From NCBI GenBank assembly GCA_029263455.1, contig JAJCXM010000019.1, positions 124,001 through 188,000 on the forward strand: a stretch of DNA of 64,000 nucleotides. Direction: 5' to 3'. The stretch comes from Holophagae bacterium (GTDB lineage Bacteria > Acidobacteriota > Holophagae > Acanthopleuribacterales > Acanthopleuribacteraceae). The position numbers and the translations under genes are program-made. The notes below the pieces were generated by a model. It was not told the DNA's origin. It did no database searches and saw only the letters and a program-made list of their open reading frames with translations. This document shows, in pieces, positions 37,095 to 46,336 of this stretch; within the stretch, counting starts at the first letter, position 1, and each line of letters opens with the position of its first letter.

Positions 37095-37571
37095 CTAAGG
37101 GACCGCATGCTCCATCAGGTGATAGATGCCACTTTCTTCGATTTTCACAAAGCCCAGACGGAGGTAGAGTCGCATCGCTGGGTTATTGTGTTCCACATGG
37201 ATCCTCAATGGTTTCCCGGTAGACTGCGATTCGTCAAGCAACTGTGCCAATAATTTACTGCCTAGGCCTTGATTTCTGTACTCGGGCATAAGGGCAATAT
37301 CAATTAACCGAATCTCGTTTTCACGTCGATCAACATAAAGCCGCCCGGCAGGCTGCCCTTCCACTTCAATCAGGTCGAACCGGGCACTCGGGAACTGCTG
37401 CTGGTAATAGGTGTGCTGCGCGTGGAATTGGAATGCTACAAATTTTGCCTTTTCGGCATCACTCCAAGGGATCTGTGCTAACTCCAATGCGCGCGTTGAA
37501 CCATAGAGTCGCTCGAGAAAAGGGAGATCTTTTGGTGTAATTGCCCTCAAACGCCAGGTTTCAATAGACAA
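37095..37571 (-). CDS. GNAT-family N-acetyltransferase, last gene of the collar operon
   Basis: The acetyl-CoA site motif A is clear: IALMPEYRNQGLGSKLL with the R/Q-x-x-G-x-G/A pattern, followed by the strand 'LRIHVEHNNPAMRLYLRLGF', the family's N-x-x-A-x-x-x-Y-x-x-x-G-F element. At 158 residues it is a single-domain enzyme. It starts at TTG 37571, five bases after the stop of the first collar gene, so it is co-transcribed and perhaps coupled. Acetylation of a collar protein or another cassette protein is a reasonable guess; the substrate cannot be read from sequence. Confidence 0.9.
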   Translation of the reverse strand: MSIETWRLRAITPKDLPFLERLYGSTRALELAQIPWSDAEKAKFVAFQFHAQHTYYQQQFPSARFDLIEVEGQPAGRLYVDRRENEIRLIDIALMPEYRNQGLGSKLLAQLLDESQSTGKPLRIHVEHNNPAMRLYLRLGFVKIEESGIYHLMEHAVP

Positions 37572-37576
37572 TTCAG

Positions 37577-38095
37577 TTACTCACTGGGATAAAGGCCTAC
37601 CAAAGCAATGATGTAGTTCAAGGTTAAAAAGGGTTGCAGATTGTTGTGAGCCTGGTCTCCGCCGGTCGATGGTAAGGTTTGCGGTGCCATGGTGACCAAA
37701 TTGTTCGGGGGAGCGTATAGGTTCATACCCAGAGCCCGAGCAATCACGGAATCGTTTTCTACATCATCGTCACCAGCGGGAGCGGGCACGGCTCGCATTG
37801 TATGGGTATGGTTTGGTATTTGCGCTTCTGTAAGCGTGACCGATTCCACACCGCCTCGTTGTCCCAATCGACGCGAAGTCAATCCAGGTCCTTGACCTGG
37901 GTGCATGGGCGCGCGTCCAGCAAGATTTGGCAACGCCGTGGTCGTCTCGCCATCACCTCCATAGGTGGTTCCAATTAACGAAAATAGAGCCGTGTTTTGA
38001 GCAATGGGCAATAGTTGGCCATTGCAAAACGCCCAGCCCTGAGGGGCAAAATTACCGGCAAAAATGCGGATTTCAGCGACAAATGGCTCAGACAT
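37577..38095 (-). CDS. Tail-collar-domain protein 1 (microcystin-dependent-protein type)
   Basis: The 172-residue protein has the phage tail-collar fold signature: MSEPFVAEIR, 'GWAFCNGQLLPI', 'LFSLIGTTYGGDGETTTALPNLAGR', 'RLGQRGGVESVTL' and the C-terminal 'QPFLTLNYIIALVGLYPS'. An NHTH motif and a later QAH-N could place His around a trimer axis, as His-x-His pairs bind metal in T4 short and long tail fibres. There is no signal peptide. GAGGAGG seven bases before ATG 38095 is one of the best ribosome sites in the window, pointing to high expression. It is followed by the GNAT gene and preceded by two paralogues with 12-base gaps. Confidence 0.92.
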   Translation of the reverse strand: MSEPFVAEIRIFAGNFAPQGWAFCNGQLLPIAQNTALFSLIGTTYGGDGETTTALPNLAGRAPMHPGQGPGLTSRRLGQRGGVESVTLTEAQIPNHTHTMRAVPAPAGDDDVENDSVIARALGMNLYAPPNNLVTMAPQTLPSTGGDQAHNNLQPFLTLNYIIALVGLYPSE

Positions 38096-38107
38096 TAGGA
38101 TTCCTCC

Positions 38108-38626
38108 TCAGCTACTTGGATAGATACCGACCAACGCGATAATGAAATGGATACACAAATAGGGCATTAAATTGGTATGGCTACGCGACCCGCCAGTATT
38201 GCTAATTGCCGATGAAGCCATAGCAACCGTTGTGGGCGGGTTCTGAAAATAGATGTCCAGCGGTACATTCGAGCCAGTCACATTCCCCAGGGGTCTGGTT
38301 TCCGTTGCTGTATCGGCCGATCCCTGCATTTGGTGTGAATGGGATGGCATTTGATTGACCGTAAGCGTGACATTCTCGCTACCGGCTCTGGAACCAAGTT
38401 GCCTCGGCGATAGTCCCGGACCTGAGCCTGCATGAATCGGCAATCGACCTCTCAAATCAGGTAATCCAAAAGTCGTTTCGCCGTCACCACCATAAATTGT
38501 TCCAAGTAAGCTGAATAATGCGTCATTCTGCGAAACAGCAAGTAATTGACCGTCGCAAAACGCCCAACCACCAGGCGCGAAATTGCCGGCAAACATGCGT
38601 ATCTCACCTACAAAGGGTTCTGACAT
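38108..38626 (-). CDS. Tail-collar-domain protein 2
   Basis: A paralogue of its two neighbours (172 residues) with the same blocks: 'EIRMFAGNFAPGGWAFCDGQ', 'GTIYGGDGETTFGLPDLRGR', 'QLGSRAGSENVTL' and 'MPYLCIHFIIALVGIYPS'. The variable middle (~95-145) differs most, carrying SHSH and later RSHTN where copy 1 has NHTH and QAHNN. The surface loop therefore seems to diverge while the fold and candidate metal His are kept. GGAG lies nine bases before ATG 38626. It lacks a signal peptide. Confidence 0.92.
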   Translation of the reverse strand: MSEPFVGEIRMFAGNFAPGGWAFCDGQLLAVSQNDALFSLLGTIYGGDGETTFGLPDLRGRLPIHAGSGPGLSPRQLGSRAGSENVTLTVNQMPSHSHQMQGSADTATETRPLGNVTGSNVPLDIYFQNPPTTVAMASSAISNTGGSRSHTNLMPYLCIHFIIALVGIYPSS

Positions 38627-38638
38627 ATGGTTTTGCTC

Positions 38639-39154
38639 CTAATTCTCGCTTGGGAATACACCTTGTAAAGCGATACAAAAGTTTAATGCAAGGTACGGTT
38701 GCATATTGTCGTGTGCCTGGCCACCGCCAACCGACGTCAGCGCTTGGCTAGACATACCCACTAGGTTGTTAGGTGGTTGATACGAAGTATTTGTCGCACG
38801 TGCAAAAACATTGTTTTGTGGGTCATTGGTCGTTGCGTTGTCATCCGAACACATAGCAATATGGTCATGATTGGATATCTCAGCGGCAGAAAGCGTATGC
38901 GTCTCTTCGCCACTTCGTTGCCCAAGCTGATGTGGTGCTACGCCATTAGAGCTGCCAACGTGGATTGGCACCCGTCCGCGCAAGTCCGGCAAAGCAAATG
39001 ATGTTTCGCCGTCACCGCCATAAGTGGTTCCTAATAACGAATAGAGCGACTGGTTCTGATTAATAGGCAAAATCTGGCCATCACAAAAAGCCCATCCCGA
39101 AGGGGCAAAGTTGAATCCGATAATGCGGATTTCTGCGAGAAAGGGTTCAGACAT
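38639..39154 (-). CDS. Tail-collar-domain protein 3
   Basis: The third paralogue (171 residues) lies directly after the giant adhesin gene (24-base gap). Conserved blocks are 'EIRIIGFNFAPSGWAFCDGQ', 'GTTYGGDGETSFALPDLRGR', 'QLGQRSGEETHTL' and 'MQPYLALNFCIALQGVFPS'. The variable middle carries NHDH and QAHDN. GAGGAG lies eight bases before ATG 39154. With three different copies in one operon, a heteromeric or stacked fibre is possible. No other phage structural gene is nearby. Confidence 0.92.
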   Translation of the reverse strand: MSEPFLAEIRIIGFNFAPSGWAFCDGQILPINQNQSLYSLLGTTYGGDGETSFALPDLRGRVPIHVGSSNGVAPHQLGQRSGEETHTLSAAEISNHDHIAMCSDDNATTNDPQNNVFARATNTSYQPPNNLVGMSSQALTSVGGGQAHDNMQPYLALNFCIALQGVFPSEN

Positions 39155-39178: not shown

Positions 39179-42100
39179 TCATGGATTACAGGTTCCGTTG
39201 ACAACATTGGTAATGGCGCCACCGATACTGAAAGTCGTTGTGGCCGGGTTATTCAGGCTAAGTACCGTCACTACGGGATCAGCTAAAGCTGCCATACCTT
39301 GCTCAAGATTATGAACGCCGGTGTCCTGATCAATATGTATGCCTTCGCCTAAGCCAGGGAAACCGCCGTCGTTCCCAACACTTGTGTTGCCACTAATTTC
39401 GGAACAAACGGGATTCGTGTCTCGTTGACGGATACTGATCCCGTGGGCGATCATCGTGGCCATATCCACGTTGTTATTTGTGACCGTAATATCCAAAGAC
39501 CCAGGCCCACCTACGATGTCCCTGGCCTCTGCGAAAATACCCTCTGCTTCATGAACGGACACGACATTAGTGTCGATCAGTACTGTGGCGACCGGATCTA
39601 CATCGATGCGTACATTGACACCGCGATCTAGACGATTGGTACAGCCTCCACAAACGGTTCCATCGATCATGTTACCCATGATCGTCGCATCCAGAGCTGC
39701 ATCATCGTCGGCGTTACACAAAATGGCAAAAAAGTTCCCGTTATTAATTGTATTGTTTAGGATTTCAATGGCCGCTGTGGAGTCACTGGCCGTCACCGAC
39801 TGAATGCCACCAGAACCAAAAGCGTTGCCACAGTTGAAGGTATTGCCATCAATGACGCCTTCAAAATCAGCCATGCCTATTGAAGAAAAGATCACACCAA
39901 GCGCACCTTCCGCATTGATGGTAAATGTCGAGTTGTTGACCTCAACCCGTTGTAGCGATGTTCCGTCAGGTTGGATCAGCACGCCGTTTTCGCCGTGCTC
40001 GCTTTGATGGCCAGAGAACGTACAGCCGTCGACAACCAATTCATCACGAGTTCCATCGTCCGCTGTTGTATTCGCCGCAAAAATCCCGTTTTCATTGATG
40101 CTAGGAAAGTCCACATTTTGGATCAGACTAATCCCGAATAGATTCAAGGCATGGATGCCGTTTTCATCATCGCCGGCCGCCCCTACGATGTTGGTGGTGT
40201 CGCTGACGGTGCTTTCCGTCATGGTAAATCCGACAACGTTTTGCAACAGAACTTCGTGATCGTTGGCATTGGAAATAGTCATGTAATTGAGTGAAGGCGA
40301 CGTTGACGTATTGATGTCCACGCCATTTTGGGTAGAAGCGTTGATAATGCCACCCGAATTAGCGGTTGAACCATCGCCAGTGACTTGGAAAGAGCCTGTC
40401 GTTCCGGTCGTATTCAATACAATCCCACTGGTCGCACCGTTGACGTGGATCTGTCTGAAAGTCACACCCGGTGCGCCTATTGTGGTGTTTTGGATGGTGA
40501 CACCCACGCCAGTGATTGGCGTTGCCATCGAGCCAATGGCATTATTGATCCCAGTTGCTGAGACCGTCCCGCCACCGGTCGCGGTGAATGCATTGTTAGC
40601 GCCCGTATCCAAATCCAGATCGCCACTGAAATTGATGGTGGAACCCGTATTGTTGTTGAGAAAGATTCCGGTCCCGCTATCGCTAATATTGCCGTTAAAG
40701 GCCACCGTTCCAGCCATGCGATTCATGACTTCTACCGATCGACTGGCCGTATTCGTGATCGAGCCAGCGTAGGTTACATCACCCTGGCCGCCGCTGACCT
40801 GGAAGGCGATACCGCCGGCACCGCTGATGTCACTAGCAGCACCGTTAATCGTGACCGAACCCACATTGCTGCTGAGACTAATCCCGTTATTAGGGGCACT
40901 ATTATGATTGATGTCAAGACTAGAAAAGGTGACGCTGGCTCCCATGCTTGAGGTGATCATCAAGGAATCTGTATTGTCAGTCGTTTGGTTGTCGATAGTG
41001 GTGTCTCCAAAGACAACAACTTGGTTGATGTTAGAAATCTCAATGCCCACGTCGTCGCGGTTATCTATGTTTAGGTCACCCAAGGTGGTGCTCATTGACC
41101 CACCTGAAACCAACACGCTTGTTTGGCTGGCGTTATTGATGACGGAAGTGCCTGTGACCGTAACTGGACTTAGCACATTTACCAACCGTATGCCATTGCC
41201 CGGTGAATTGGAGGATGTCGGGTTTTGGAAGTTAAACATTCCAGCCGTGTTTTCGATGTTGATGGCAGGACCGCCATTTGCGTTGAACGTTGGCGATGTA
41301 CCTGTGAGATTAACCGTGCCGCTATTAATGGCGATGAGTCCGGTACCGGTCACAGTGGTCATATTACCTAGGTTATTGAAGGTAAATGTGCCTGGCGAAC
41401 CGTTAATTCGAATGGCATCGGTGCCGTTGGCCGTAATTGTGGTGTTGCCAAAGTTGGCTGAATCGCCGCCTAACGTAAAACTGGAGTCGATGTTGACGCC
41501 GCGGGTACTCGCATCTGAGATCGTTGTATTTGTCGCGGAGAAACTACCCGTCACTCCTGCGGTTATCTCGATCCCATGGTTTGCACTCATGTCAGACTGA
41601 ATATTGTTGAACGTCATAGCAATCGCCAATGGACCCGCAAGATCCAACGCCATGCCGCCATTCGTCTCGATATTGCTCGTGCCCATTACATTCACGGTGC
41701 CGCTGTTGGCAGCGTCAATCCCTCGAGTGGTCGTGAAAGTTCCACCAATATTCAAGTCGGTAAACGTGAAAACCGACGCGGGATTGTTAAACAACCGAAT
41801 CGCCGTGCCCAACTGATCGATGGTCAAACCCATGGCATTGACCGTGAACCCACCAGGGTCCGAAAACTCAACCCGGAACCCGGATCCGCTTGCGCCCGGC
41901 ATACCCAAAATATTGGAATTAGTGATGGTCAAAAGGCCAGCGCGCCCAAATAACGCTAGTCCGTCGCTGGCGTTACTGGTTTGGAAGGACACATAGTCGA
42001 TCGCTGCAGTGCCCACCTTACCACTCGCGTGGCCTTGTTTCCTGGGCTCGATCCCTGCTGCAATACCAGCGCTGTTCTGCGGCTGTAGCGTCATGCCTTG

Positions 42101-45100
42101 CACCGTATTGTTCATAGCAAGTGTCACCACATCACCATTGGCACCATTGGTGTTGGTGATGACCGGGCCATTGGCGATCGATGGATTGCCACCTACCACA
42201 TTGAGCGCAACCGTATCCACCACCAGGTCGATGCCTTCGCCATGAAGTATTTGGCCGTCTAGCAGAGTAATGCCGGCAGGCGTGGCCGCATCGTAGGCCA
42301 TTGCGGCATCGTAAACAAAGATGCGATCGCCCACGTCTGGATCATCGGTCGCCATCATTCCTTGTTCGGCCATGAAGGCCGGGATGTTGTTAAAAGGACT
42401 GACCGAAGACCCGATTCCTGCACCCGCGTCGCCGTCGATGAACCAGACCATGTCGACCACATCAATCGTTACAGTTCCCATGGCCGTCATCGGCATACCT
42501 GGATCGTTGTCTGAAACCGTGTAGGTGAAGGTGTCCGTAAGGGTGGTTTCACCCAGAGGTGGCTGGTACGTAAATTCACCCGTCGTCATATTCATGGCAA
42601 TTGCGCCGCCAGCTGTACTAGCGGCGTCAAAGGCTGTAATACTCAGGAGTCCTGGCGTTTCTGCGTCTGTGTCGTTATCAAGAACGTCACCCATGACGAA
42701 TACGCGAGGCGTGGTGACGGCAGAGGCATTAGCAAATTCGAAGGTTGTGTTACCAATAGCTCGGTTGCCGGCTGTCTGAAAGTTTTCGTCCAAAATGATC
42801 GGGGGGTCGTTGACGCCGGTGATAGTCAAGGTAACGGTAGCGGTTTCCGCACAGGTGCCCGAACCATCGTCAATCGTGTAGGTAAACATATCAGTGGTCA
42901 TTTGCCCGGCCGTTAAGACAAAGGCGCCGTTGGCATCGTAACTAAAGGTTCCATTGGCGTTGACCGTGAGCAAGGCCCCCGAGGCCAGGGCGAATTGTAC
43001 GCCCACATTGGCTGAGTTACCGTTGACGGCCGTCACATCCAATCCATCACCTTCAATGTCACTGTCAGGTGTCGTCGGGTTAGCCACTAACACATCGCCG
43101 TTGAGCACCATGTTCTCAAGTGTGCCTACTGCATCGTCAACCGCCACTGGGCAATCATTTACGCCATTGATGGTGACGGTGACAGTAGCCGTCTCAGCGC
43201 AGGTACCCGATCCGTCGTCAATCGTATAAGTAAACATTTCCATAGCACTGTCGCCCACGCCCAAGGACTCGTAGCCACTGCTGGGATCGAAGCTGAAGGT
43301 GCCATTGGCATTGACTGTGACTAATCCAGAGCCCAATGCGATCTGAATGCCCACATTAGCTGGGTTACCGTTGACGGCAGTAACTACCAGGCTATCGCCT
43401 TCAGGGTCACTATCAGGCGTGGTTGGATTGGCGGCATAGACGTCGCCATTGAGTAACGTATCTTCGTCAGTTGTCGCGGCATCGTCAACGGCAACGGGAC
43501 AGTCGTTAACGCCGTTGATGGTGACAGTAACCGTAGCCGTCTCTGTGCAGGTGCCCGATCCGTCATCGATGGCATAGGTAAAGCTGTCCATAGCCATATC
43601 GCCAGCGGCTAACGCATCAAACGCACCATTAGGGTCATAACTAAAAGTTCCATTGGCGTTGACCGTAACCAATGCACCAGAACCCAAGGCAATCTGCATA
43701 CCTACGTTAGCGCCTACTCCCTGCACCTGAACCACCGTCAGCATGTCGCCTTCAATATCGCTATCGGGCGTGGTGGGATTGGCCACTAGCACATCACCGT
43801 TAAGCAAGGTATCTTCGTCAGTGCTAACCGCATCATCCACCGCTGTTGGGCAATCGTTGACCCCATCAATCGTGATGTCGACCGTTGTAGAGAGTTGCGC
43901 CAATCCTGTACAACCAGAACCGTCGTCAATCGAATAGGTAAAGCTATCCATGGCAGATCCACCCACCGACAGCGATTCAAATTGACCATTAGGATCGTAG
44001 GCAAAGGTTCCGTCGGTGTTGACCGTCAACAATGCACCCGAACCCAATGTGATTTGGACACCTACATTGGCAAGCGATCCGTTAACTGCTGTGATATTTA
44101 GTACGTCTGATTCTGGATCCGTATCCGCGCCGCTGCCGTTGTCGACCGTGACATCGCCATTCAATAGGGTGTCTTCGTCGGTCATAACTGCATCCGCAAC
44201 TGCGGTTGGGCAGTCGTTGACGCCATCTATAGTAAGCGACACGGTTGCCAACTGGGCACAAGTCGCCGAGCCATCGTCAATGGCGTAAGTGAAACTGTCC
44301 ATGGCGGTGTCGCCTACAGCTAAGCTCTCAAATTGGCCGTTGGGATCGTAATCAAAGGTGCCATCGGCGTTGACAGTTACCAATGCGCCGGAACCTAATG
44401 TGACTTGCACGCCGACATTGGCTGGCATGCCTTCCACTTCGACCACATTTAGCGGATCACTTTCTGGATCACTATCCGGACCTAACCCGTTGTCTACCAA
44501 CACATTACCTGAGGTGGGTGTATCTTCGTCGGTAGTAACCGCATCATCGGCAGCGAAGGGACAATCATTGACACCGTCAATGGTGACGGTCACGGTCGCA
44601 GCCTCACTGCAAAGAGCGGTGCTGTCATCCAATGAGTAAGTCCAGGAATCGGTATCCATTTGACCGGGCGCCAGCACGTCGAAGGCGCCGTTGGGGTCGT
44701 AGGCAAAGGTTCCGTCCATGTTCTGAGTTAGCAATGCGCCCGAAGACAGCGAAACTTGTACGCCTACATCTCCTGCCATGCCGTTAACGGCAACCACAAC
44801 CAAAGGGCCTGGGCCATCAATATCGGTATCCGGTCCGTTGCCATTGTCCAGTAATACATCGCCGATGAGCAGAGTGTCCTCATCGGTTGCGACGGCATCA
44901 TCCTGAGGTACTGGGCAATCGTTGACCGCGTTGAAGATAATGCTAAATGACTGAGAAGCGGAAGTATCCACGCCACCATTCATCATCCCGCCATCGTCCA
45001 TTAGGACCAATTCAATGACTGCTGTGCCGTTCGCATCCGGCTCATTTTCGAAAGTCAGGTCTCCGCTAGTTTCGTCTACTGCAGGAGCACCCGTCATTGA

Positions 45101-46336
45101 AAAAAGTGCAGGGTTGCTGTTGTTAGTTACGATGAATGTCAAGATTTGGCTCGACTCATTGGCCGGACCCGCGCTGATGGCAGTTGCCCAGCCAGGAACC
45201 GTTTGTGGGCCTATATCCTTGTCGATCTGTTGATCAGCGCCCGCCAAGAAACTCGGCACATCGTTAACAGGGTCAATGGTTAGTTCGACGGTTGCGGGCA
45301 CCGAATTCACAATGCTGTCGTTTACGACAAACGAAAAGCTGTCGAGTCCAAAGTAATCTGCGTTAGGGGTATAGTCGACGGAAGCTGATGTTGCATCAAT
45401 TGGTGTGATCGCGCTTAAAAGGCCATTACTAGGTCCCGTATCGATAGCGAACGTAAGTGGCTGTCCTTCAGGATCCATACCCGTCAAGGTAATGGTCATT
45501 GGTGGATCGTCCTCAAGCAACATTTGCATTTGAGGATCGGCAATAGGGGCAAGATTTAAAACAGCATCTATGCGTAGATAGAGCGATTGTGCATTAGGGC
45601 TAATGCCTTGCACACAGTAAAAGAAAGCCAAAATATCAGGCGCATTGCCATTATCGCCGCTTGGATCCGTAGCAACAGGACCGCCCGACCAATCATTCGC
45701 GTCGCCGTCAAGGACAATGCTTGGACCAAACCCCACAAATGTGATGGACGCCACCAGTAAAAAGACCATTATCGCGGCGCGTTGATTAGGATGACGGCGC
45801 ATCCACCAAATGGCCACGATCATCATCAAAACTATCCATACTATGAGTAGCCATTGAGAAAGCGTTGGCACAGGAATGAATAGCAGAAACGAAATCGGAT
45901 TTCCGTCCGCCAAAAGCAATGCGTCCTCATCGCCGCCCTGCCCACTGGCCGTCAATGCAGACCGTACGTAGCCTGTGGGAGTTGAAAAAACCGACATCGG
46001 GTACAGCGTCTCAATGACATCGGAACCGTTGAGCCCATTTCCCTGACCTACCGACCATCCGCCAACATTAACGGATACAGGTGCGGCAAACACCAAGCCT
46101 GTACAATCGGCGATCGAGACATCTGTAACCGTCATAGTTAACTGATCGACGGTTGTGATTAGCACTTGTTCGGCACCAAAAAAATCGCCATCTACCGTGT
46201 TTACGGTACAACCCGTATTCGGATCATCATCAAGATCAAGAGGAATACGGAATTCAACGGTCTGGGCCACTGACCATATCACCGAAAGCCCAAGTACAAC
46301 CGCACACCGAGTCAAGAAACGCGCTGCGTGAATCAT
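39179..46336 (-). CDS. Giant secreted adhesin: internal IPTL-like segment, cadherin/VCBS repeats, beta-helix
   Basis: About 2385 residues. ATG 46336 has AAGGG eight bases upstream and is preferred over GTG 46345. A signal peptide (to ~27) leads to a ~130-residue domain ('DLDDDPNTGCTV', 'GGWSVGQGNGLNGSDVIE'). The PVPTLSQW sequence, a hydrophobic helix and WMRRH (~155-182) form an IPTL-type signal, here internal. A second hydrophobic stretch (~187-203) and a 'LDGDANDWSG' domain follow. Then come two cadherin-like domains, six near-identical ~115-residue VCBS/RapA2-like repeats each opening VNDCPxAxDDA, a seventh divergent one, and a C-terminal ~1050-residue right-handed beta-helix ('FNNIPAFMAEQ' start, many N-x-x-I/V-x-x-N rungs). 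It heads the collar-GNAT operon. The predicted role is a surface fibre or adhesin; the ligand is unknown. Confidence 0.9.
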   Translation of the reverse strand: MIHAARFLTRCAVVLGLSVIWSVAQTVEFRIPLDLDDDPNTGCTVNTVDGDFFGAEQVLITTVDQLTMTVTDVSIADCTGLVFAAPVSVNVGGWSVGQGNGLNGSDVIETLYPMSVFSTPTGYVRSALTASGQGGDEDALLLADGNPISFLLFIPVPTLSQWLLIVWIVLMMIVAIWWMRRHPNQRAAIMVFLLVASITFVGFGPSIVLDGDANDWSGGPVATDPSGDNGNAPDILAFFYCVQGISPNAQSLYLRIDAVLNLAPIADPQMQMLLEDDPPMTITLTGMDPEGQPLTFAIDTGPSNGLLSAITPIDATSASVDYTPNADYFGLDSFSFVVNDSIVNSVPATVELTIDPVNDVPSFLAGADQQIDKDIGPQTVPGWATAISAGPANESSQILTFIVTNNSNPALFSMTGAPAVDETSGDLTFENEPDANGTAVIELVLMDDGGMMNGGVDTSASQSFSIIFNAVNDCPVPQDDAVATDEDTLLIGDVLLDNGNGPDTDIDGPGPLVVVAVNGMAGDVGVQVSLSSGALLTQNMDGTFAYDPNGAFDVLAPGQMDTDSWTYSLDDSTALCSEAATVTVTIDGVNDCPFAADDAVTTDEDTPTSGNVLVDNGLGPDSDPESDPLNVVEVEGMPANVGVQVTLGSGALVTVNADGTFDYDPNGQFESLAVGDTAMDSFTYAIDDGSATCAQLATVSLTIDGVNDCPTAVADAVMTDEDTLLNGDVTVDNGSGADTDPESDVLNITAVNGSLANVGVQITLGSGALLTVNTDGTFAYDPNGQFESLSVGGSAMDSFTYSIDDGSGCTGLAQLSTTVDITIDGVNDCPTAVDDAVSTDEDTLLNGDVLVANPTTPDSDIEGDMLTVVQVQGVGANVGMQIALGSGALVTVNANGTFSYDPNGAFDALAAGDMAMDSFTYAIDDGSGTCTETATVTVTINGVNDCPVAVDDAATTDEDTLLNGDVYAANPTTPDSDPEGDSLVVTAVNGNPANVGIQIALGSGLVTVNANGTFSFDPSSGYESLGVGDSAMEMFTYTIDDGSGTCAETATVTVTINGVNDCPVAVDDAVGTLENMVLNGDVLVANPTTPDSDIEGDGLDVTAVNGNSANVGVQFALASGALLTVNANGTFSYDANGAFVLTAGQMTTDMFTYTIDDGSGTCAETATVTLTITGVNDPPIILDENFQTAGNRAIGNTTFEFANASAVTTPRVFVMGDVLDNDTDAETPGLLSITAFDAASTAGGAIAMNMTTGEFTYQPPLGETTLTDTFTYTVSDNDPGMPMTAMGTVTIDVVDMVWFIDGDAGAGIGSSVSPFNNIPAFMAEQGMMATDDPDVGDRIFVYDAAMAYDAATPAGITLLDGQILHGEGIDLVVDTVALNVVGGNPSIANGPVITNTNGANGDVVTLAMNNTVQGMTLQPQNSAGIAAGIEPRKQGHASGKVGTAAIDYVSFQTSNASDGLALFGRAGLLTITNSNILGMPGASGSGFRVEFSDPGGFTVNAMGLTIDQLGTAIRLFNNPASVFTFTDLNIGGTFTTTRGIDAANSGTVNVMGTSNIETNGGMALDLAGPLAIAMTFNNIQSDMSANHGIEITAGVTGSFSATNTTISDASTRGVNIDSSFTLGGDSANFGNTTITANGTDAIRINGSPGTFTFNNLGNMTTVTGTGLIAINSGTVNLTGTSPTFNANGGPAINIENTAGMFNFQNPTSSNSPGNGIRLVNVLSPVTVTGTSVINNASQTSVLVSGGSMSTTLGDLNIDNRDDVGIEISNINQVVVFGDTTIDNQTTDNTDSLMITSSMGASVTFSSLDINHNSAPNNGISLSSNVGSVTINGAASDISGAGGIAFQVSGGQGDVTYAGSITNTASRSVEVMNRMAGTVAFNGNISDSGTGIFLNNNTGSTINFSGDLDLDTGANNAFTATGGGTVSATGINNAIGSMATPITGVGVTIQNTTIGAPGVTFRQIHVNGATSGIVLNTTGTTGSFQVTGDGSTANSGGIINASTQNGVDINTSTSPSLNYMTISNANDHEVLLQNVVGFTMTESTVSDTTNIVGAAGDDENGIHALNLFGISLIQNVDFPSINENGIFAANTTADDGTRDELVVDGCTFSGHQSEHGENGVLIQPDGTSLQRVEVNNSTFTINAEGALGVIFSSIGMADFEGVIDGNTFNCGNAFGSGGIQSVTASDSTAAIEILNNTINNGNFFAILCNADDDAALDATIMGNMIDGTVCGGCTNRLDRGVNVRIDVDPVATVLIDTNVVSVHEAEGIFAEARDIVGGPGSLDITVTNNNVDMATMIAHGISIRQRDTNPVCSEISGNTSVGNDGGFPGLGEGIHIDQDTGVHNLEQGMAALADPVVTVLSLNNPATTTFSIGGAITNVVNGTCNP
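42795..44935 (-). repeat. Six near-identical ~345-base VCBS-type repeats inside the giant gene
   Basis: Repeat starts, marked by the codons for VNDCP, fall near 44925, 44575, 44215, 43860, 43505 and 43155; a divergent seventh starts near 42805. Each copy has the order VNDCP-DDA-TDEDTLLNGDV, then GSGALVTVN, then DGTFxYDPNG, then DSFTYxIDDGSGTC, then VTVTING. The high DNA similarity makes the array prone to expansion or loss by recombination. Confidence 0.85.

Follow-up and report, generated by a model that had tools for sequence, protein, structure and literature searches.

The window analysed here, a stretch of 64,000 nucleotides from a Holophagae bacterium, encodes a giant fibre protein that carries in its interior an IPTL-type exosortase signal followed directly by a second export-like stretch. 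Together these form a hairpin of two hydrophobic helices (TM1 and TM2) between an N-terminal beta domain, the N-domain, and a short segment with the motif LDGxxxDW, the half-domain. The anatomy of the hairpin is conserved, proteins bearing it co-occur with the exosortase XrtH, a signal-peptidase-like site lies at its end, and its two flanks are obligately paired. The hairpin is quite probably processed twice, with both cuts predicted from sequence, and the full reading, in which the hairpin serves one secreted protein as a double processing module and its flanks are held as one domain, has in our estimate an even chance of being correct.

On the minus strand a single frame is open from 46345 through 39179 (Table 1). 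Its likely start is the ATG at 46336, which has an RBS-like AAAAGGG 9 bases upstream and gives a protein of 2385 aa; the alternative start, GTG 46345, gives 2388 residues, and the residue numbers used here for the mid-protein signal count from this GTG. The ends of the giant proteins (window 39182-39199; L040, L041, L046-L049 and L051) are alike in a short, conserved tail that has a single Cys together with Pro, for example NGTCNP, GTSCPTP or GGCASP, which is possibly a second, C-terminal signal or a disulfide. The fibre gene heads a cluster in which three tail-collar genes and then a GNAT gene follow on the same strand (window 37095-39154). This set is repeated in order in three other genomes (G001, G005 and G006); in G004 the stretch examined ends after the first two collar genes, and a betaproteobacterial MAG (L062) has three collar genes followed by a GNAT-like match. 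Collar genes are absent beside the other paralogues examined (L041, L047, L048 and L050). The cluster points to a defined surface system; a literature search on tail-collar/MdpB found nothing relevant.

Table 1. Features of the fibre gene and its neighbours, in window coordinates.
Feature	Position	Strand	Basis
Giant hairpin-bearing fibre protein	39179..46336	-	open frame, RBS-like AAAAGGG before ATG
N-terminal signal peptide (MIHAARFLTRCAVVLGLSVIWSVA/Q)	46265..46336	-	translation; counterpart in all homologues
N-domain, ~130 aa, all-beta; proposed C-terminal two thirds of permuted sandwich domain	45875..46264	-	alignment, AlphaFold model of homologue, permuted-profile test
IPTL-type exosortase signal, mid-protein, residues 158-185: PVPTLSQW, TM1, RRH (PVPTLSQWLLIVWIVLMMIVAIWWMRRH)	45791..45874	-	translation, NF033207 match, conservation
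Putative internal signal peptide: basic loop RRHPNQR, TM2, small-residue site GFG/PS or GPS/IV	45719..45799	-	family-wide [AVST]xA site
LDGxxxDW half-domain, ~55 aa; proposed N-terminal third of the N-domain's domain	45554..45718	-	alignment; always in frame with N-domain
Tandem Ig/cadherin-like repeats, limits approximate	42452..45553	-	PF17963, PF17803, PF17892; NF012211 tand_rpt_95
C-terminal repeat region, ends NGTCNP; predicted parallel beta helix	39182..42451	-	sequence
Tail-collar (PF07484) protein A	38639..39154	-	Pfam; conserved neighbour
Tail-collar (PF07484) protein B	38108..38626	-	Pfam; conserved neighbour
Tail-collar (PF07484) protein C	37577..38095	-	Pfam; conserved neighbour
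GNAT-family acetyltransferase	37095..37571	-	PF00583; conserved neighbour

An earlier note on this DNA had described an IPTL-type signal in mid-protein followed by a second export-like stretch, and both are borne out within one open frame, the signal lying within 3 bases of where the note had placed it. The second hydrophobic run, at residues ~190-205, follows PNQRAA and ends in VGFGPS, immediately before IVLDGDANDW. The NCBIfam model NF033207 (midcut_by_XrtH) matches residues 157-204 with an E value of 7.7e-6 and 26.1 bits, below the model cut-off of 45 bits, and the mid-protein motif-TM-basic loop-TM hairpin that characterizes NF033207 is present in the fibre protein. Relaxing the threshold to E <= 1 still gave no match of the IPTL_CTERM model TIGR04174 (cut-off 20.5) to the fibre protein. 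The window's first gene, which the note had also read as ending in an IPTL signal, does so by the same model, scoring 20.7 bits against this cut-off.

The order of signal peptide, ~130-aa beta domain, PxL motif, TM1, basic loop, TM2, LDGxxxDW segment and Ig-like repeats recurs in 37 non-redundant proteins from Acidobacteriota and Proteobacteria, so that a search for the same order in other genomes, proposed in the note, was answered in two phyla. The hairpin occupies the identical place in 12 homologues from the source genome, its family and its phylum. The architecture was found in the same genus (the neighbour being an Acidobacteria MAG, L060/G001), in four other genomes from the family and in a different family within the phylum, and also in proteobacterial MAGs and in gammaproteobacterial genomes, where the N-domain is present in 42 of the 151 sampled. 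Wherever both flanks were detected in a non-redundant protein, the hairpin is there too, with the exception of L122. Matches in G020 and G107 in the genome profile search lacked the motif and were taken as chance. The source genome (6.2 Mb in 40 contigs) holds at least six more copies with the N-domain, five of them at contig ends (C7, C17, C20, C23 and C36); near-identical giant genes probably broke the assembly at those ends, and there may in truth be more copies, or some contig ends may be parts of one gene. The fibre family is large, unnamed, spread over two phyla and distinct from the members of NF033207.

Across the 37 proteins, the loop between the helices holds 2-6 K/R and at most one D/E in its best 10-mer. 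At the end of TM2, before the half-domain, the pattern [AVST]xA occurs in 27 of the 37, as compared to a mean of 13.4 and a maximum of 23 in 2000 within-segment shuffles over the same proteins, and xWA occurs in 19 (shuffle mean 1.4); the [AVST]xA site sits a few residues ahead of the LDG strand. Because of this signal-peptidase-like site, TM2 is best read as an internal signal peptide. The fibre protein's own site is weaker than those of proteobacterial members, with Pro at one of its two candidate +1 positions. Homologues without PTLxxW, which the note had set against its own reading, exist in part: exact PTL is found in 14 of the 37, most of the others have PxL or PxI, and in two a simple scan finds none of these, the whole hairpin being absent only from L122. 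A protein of a Lysobacterales MAG (L061) has VPVAGLGG in place of the PTL motif, yet its genome has XrtH; judging from this case, the PxL-type motifs tolerated by XrtH may be more varied than those in the IPTL model.

The sorting signals of the PEP-CTERM/exosortase, rhombosortase and myxosortase systems share a logic of motif, helix and basic cluster leading to cleavage and surface anchoring (PMC3237569, PMC11980579). The source genome has 10 IPTL-type matches at E <= 0.001 and one XrtH-like exosortase, which scores 77.9 bits, below the TIGR04177 cut-off of 86 and in the same range as all members of family f1; this related exosortase keeps the catalytic Cys, Arg and His in NCNG, NEMR and FHE. 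XrtH is present in 12 of 120 Acidobacteriota relatives, including all seven genomes shown with the fibre architecture, an overlap with p = 1.3e-8 if genomes were independent, which they are not. Among 151 gammaproteobacterial relatives, XrtH exceeds the cut-off in 40 of the 42 genomes with the N-domain and in 64 of the 109 without it (Fisher p = 2.7e-6), a statistic likewise to be read with the phylogenetic clustering of XrtH-bearing genomes in mind. The four genomes obtained from the sequence search all have XrtH, three of them over the cut-off. On this co-occurrence, the fibre protein is a putative substrate of XrtH. Among the papers searched, none dealt with midcut, with IPTL and exosortase together or with XrtH chemistry.

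The two flanks of the hairpin are rather likely to belong to one beta domain in circularly permuted form, as its complementary C- and N-terminal parts. This reading is put forward because of their obligate pairing, the profile scores of L123, L125 and L127, the hhalign results and the linker of L122. In 8 genomes, profiles of the N-domain and half-domain match frames in common and no case of separation was found, those N-domain matches that have no half-domain partner lying at contig ends; the half-domain is only ~55 aa long before the repeats begin. A joined profile, with the half-domain placed ahead of the N-domain and thus in the opposite order to the fibre protein, was searched against 199 Acidobacteriota genomes. 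L123 (G107:C75) displays the unpermuted order of landmarks, IDGxxxDW...DPTGD...DI...LYLYID and then directly LRLCFDTDNNPASG...GAEL, and scores 35.1 bits with the joined profile versus 28.2 with its first part alone, a value that none of 60 column-shuffled controls reached. L125 and L127 also exceed all 60 controls; L127 was found with the joined profile and its score is biased, while L123 and L125 can be found by the half-domain alone. No clear gain over such controls was seen for L124, L126, L128, L129, L130 and L134. By hhalign, the half-domain aligns to positions 2-37 of the unpermuted set and the start of the N-domain to 78-104, so that both methods match the two parts to one unpermuted protein, L123, in the opposite order. 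In L122 (G285:C44), from an XrtH-positive genome, the two parts are joined by a ~27-aa linker without a helix. The hairpin would then be inserted into, or be the linker of, a circularly permuted domain.

AlphaFold predicts the N-domain as all-beta and the half-domain as two strands, in two models of modest confidence (mean pLDDT 65.7 and 72.2); in a betaproteobacterial homologue, blocks over the first 110 residues are mostly at pLDDT 75-92. Pfam contains no match for the N-domain, the half-domain or the unpermuted chimera, and PDB sequence and Foldseek searches of the two models found no relative, Foldseek reading topology in order and the models being modest. For a CBM9/DOMON-like sandwich, searches of Pfam, PDB and Foldseek gave no matching curated model or solved fold, and a literature search on permutation returned nothing relevant. 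The unpermuted domain of L123 stands at the head of a secreted endonuclease/exonuclease/phosphatase-like protein and has a weak match to the N-terminal part of a further sorting-signal family, TIGR04145 (Firmicu-CTERM).

In the mechanism proposed here, the N-terminal signal peptide would export the N-domain until TM1 halts transfer, leaving the basic loop in the cytoplasm, and TM2, acting as an internal signal peptide, would restart export for the half-domain, repeats and fibre. XrtH would cut at the PxL motif ahead of TM1, probably attaching an anchor to the N-domain, and signal peptidase I would cut behind TM2. Removal of the hairpin would thereby yield an anchored N-part of ~130 aa and a fibre of ~2180 aa, and the fibre would stay docked on the N-part without a covalent bond. 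Non-covalent docking is proposed because the flanks look like complementary parts of one permuted beta-sandwich domain. The first half of this predicted series of steps is well supported by sequence, and its last step, in which both chains may stay together as one domain, is a proposal. The note's suggestion that cleavage divides the protein between a short anchored N-part and a long fibre fits the conservation, the XrtH co-occurrence, the peptidase-like site and the midcut concept, with the cleavage itself standing as a prediction. That the giant fibre is clamped non-covalently to a short, enzyme-anchored partner from the same gene is a tentative proposal, somewhat short of even in our estimate, in which both the anchor and the docking are conjectural.

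The note had alternatively read the frame as two exported proteins fused, and had raised a missed stop near the junction. The two halves do each look export-competent, but homologues refute recent fusion, missed stop and assembly error alike, and the probability left to them is vanishingly small. The same open frame occurs in paralogues and in other phyla, neither the fibre protein nor any homologue has a stop or frameshift at the junction, and the dN of the hairpin between paralogues is 0.32-0.44 versus 0.94-1.2 for the N-terminal signal peptide (dS being at least 1.4 where estimable and otherwise saturated). Sequencing error and recent fusion are set aside because the architecture recurs so widely and hairpin dN lies below that of the signal peptide; the unseparated flanks, their resemblance to one permuted domain and the plain linker of L122 also speak against a joining of two proteins. 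An internal translation start at MRRHPNQ, by which the fibre would be made as a second protein, is very improbable, since the Met is not conserved among homologues and a good ribosome site is lacking upstream, although MRRHPNQRAAIMVFLL resembles a signal peptide; this candidate was rejected on both counts.

Two further explanations leave the gene intact and differ in what becomes of its product. XrtH, with or without signal peptidase, could separate the N-domain from the fibre, the two being independent afterwards and the flanks being two ordinary domains. The conserved signals and the XrtH co-occurrence would fit such a separation, and the curated NF033207 members L081-L084 have a very short N-part, indicating that the device needs no partner domain in order to work. 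We nevertheless consider this outcome unlikely, given flanks that are never found apart in the 8 genomes, a half-domain of so few residues ahead of the repeats, and the existence of unpermuted single-chain versions. Slightly less likely still is that the hairpin escapes cleavage and serves as a double-helix anchor of the fibre in the inner membrane. Strong hydrophobicity of both helices, the basic loop between them and the degenerate PTL motif of several members such as L061 agree with an uncut anchor, but the XrtH association and the [AVST]xA site after TM2 would be left unexplained, and the hairpin resembles that of NF033207 and not a generic helix pair.

Exosortase signals are taught as C-terminal tags. 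The fibre family departs from this norm in using such a signal in mid-protein together with a putative internal signal peptide. Should the flanks prove to be a single split domain, giant fibres would be attached to the Gram-negative surface in a new way. XrtH chemistry also becomes testable, since a single protein would have two cut ends whose positions are predicted, and the conserved cluster of three tail-collar proteins and an acetyltransferase provides a defined system for study.

The mid-protein concept is already named in NCBIfam as midcut-by-XrtH, and NF033207 shares with the unnamed fibre family the signal peptide, mid-protein exosortase H-type motif, TM1, basic loop, TM2 and a secreted part. 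The curated members L081-L084 are open frames of only 165-396 aa, with an N-part that is little beyond the signal peptide and a small Cys-containing C-part, whereas the fibre family has a 130-aa N-domain, the LDGxxxDW half-domain and a giant fibre. Mostly only the hairpin aligns (model positions about 33-95); the fibre protein covers only positions 35-82 of the 175 in the model, as compared to 3-174 for the best true members, and nearly all fibre-family members tested fall below the cut-off, L040 just passing at 45.2 bits. Filing the fibre protein under NF033207 was rejected on score and coverage. Because the match is confined to the hairpin and scores below the cut-off, the family is held separate from NF033207, yet it appears to use the same hairpin device. 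With the IPTL-CTERM (TIGR04174) and exosortase H (TIGR04177) system it shares the motif, helix, basic cluster and an XrtH gene, but the fibre signal is not C-terminal, being followed by a second signal peptide and more than 2000 residues. The unpermuted LDGxxxDW proteins (for example L123 and L125), which resemble a CBM9/DOMON-type sandwich, share the landmarks DG-DW, D-GD, LYxxID, DxDxNxxTG and GAE, and the order of these is reversed around the hairpin in the fibre family. In the GAIN and SEA domains of eukaryotic receptors and mucins, an autoproteolysed chain has its pieces held together by one fold. The cut-but-joined logic proposed for the fibre protein is alike, without homology, except that here an exosortase and a signal peptidase would cut the hairpin.
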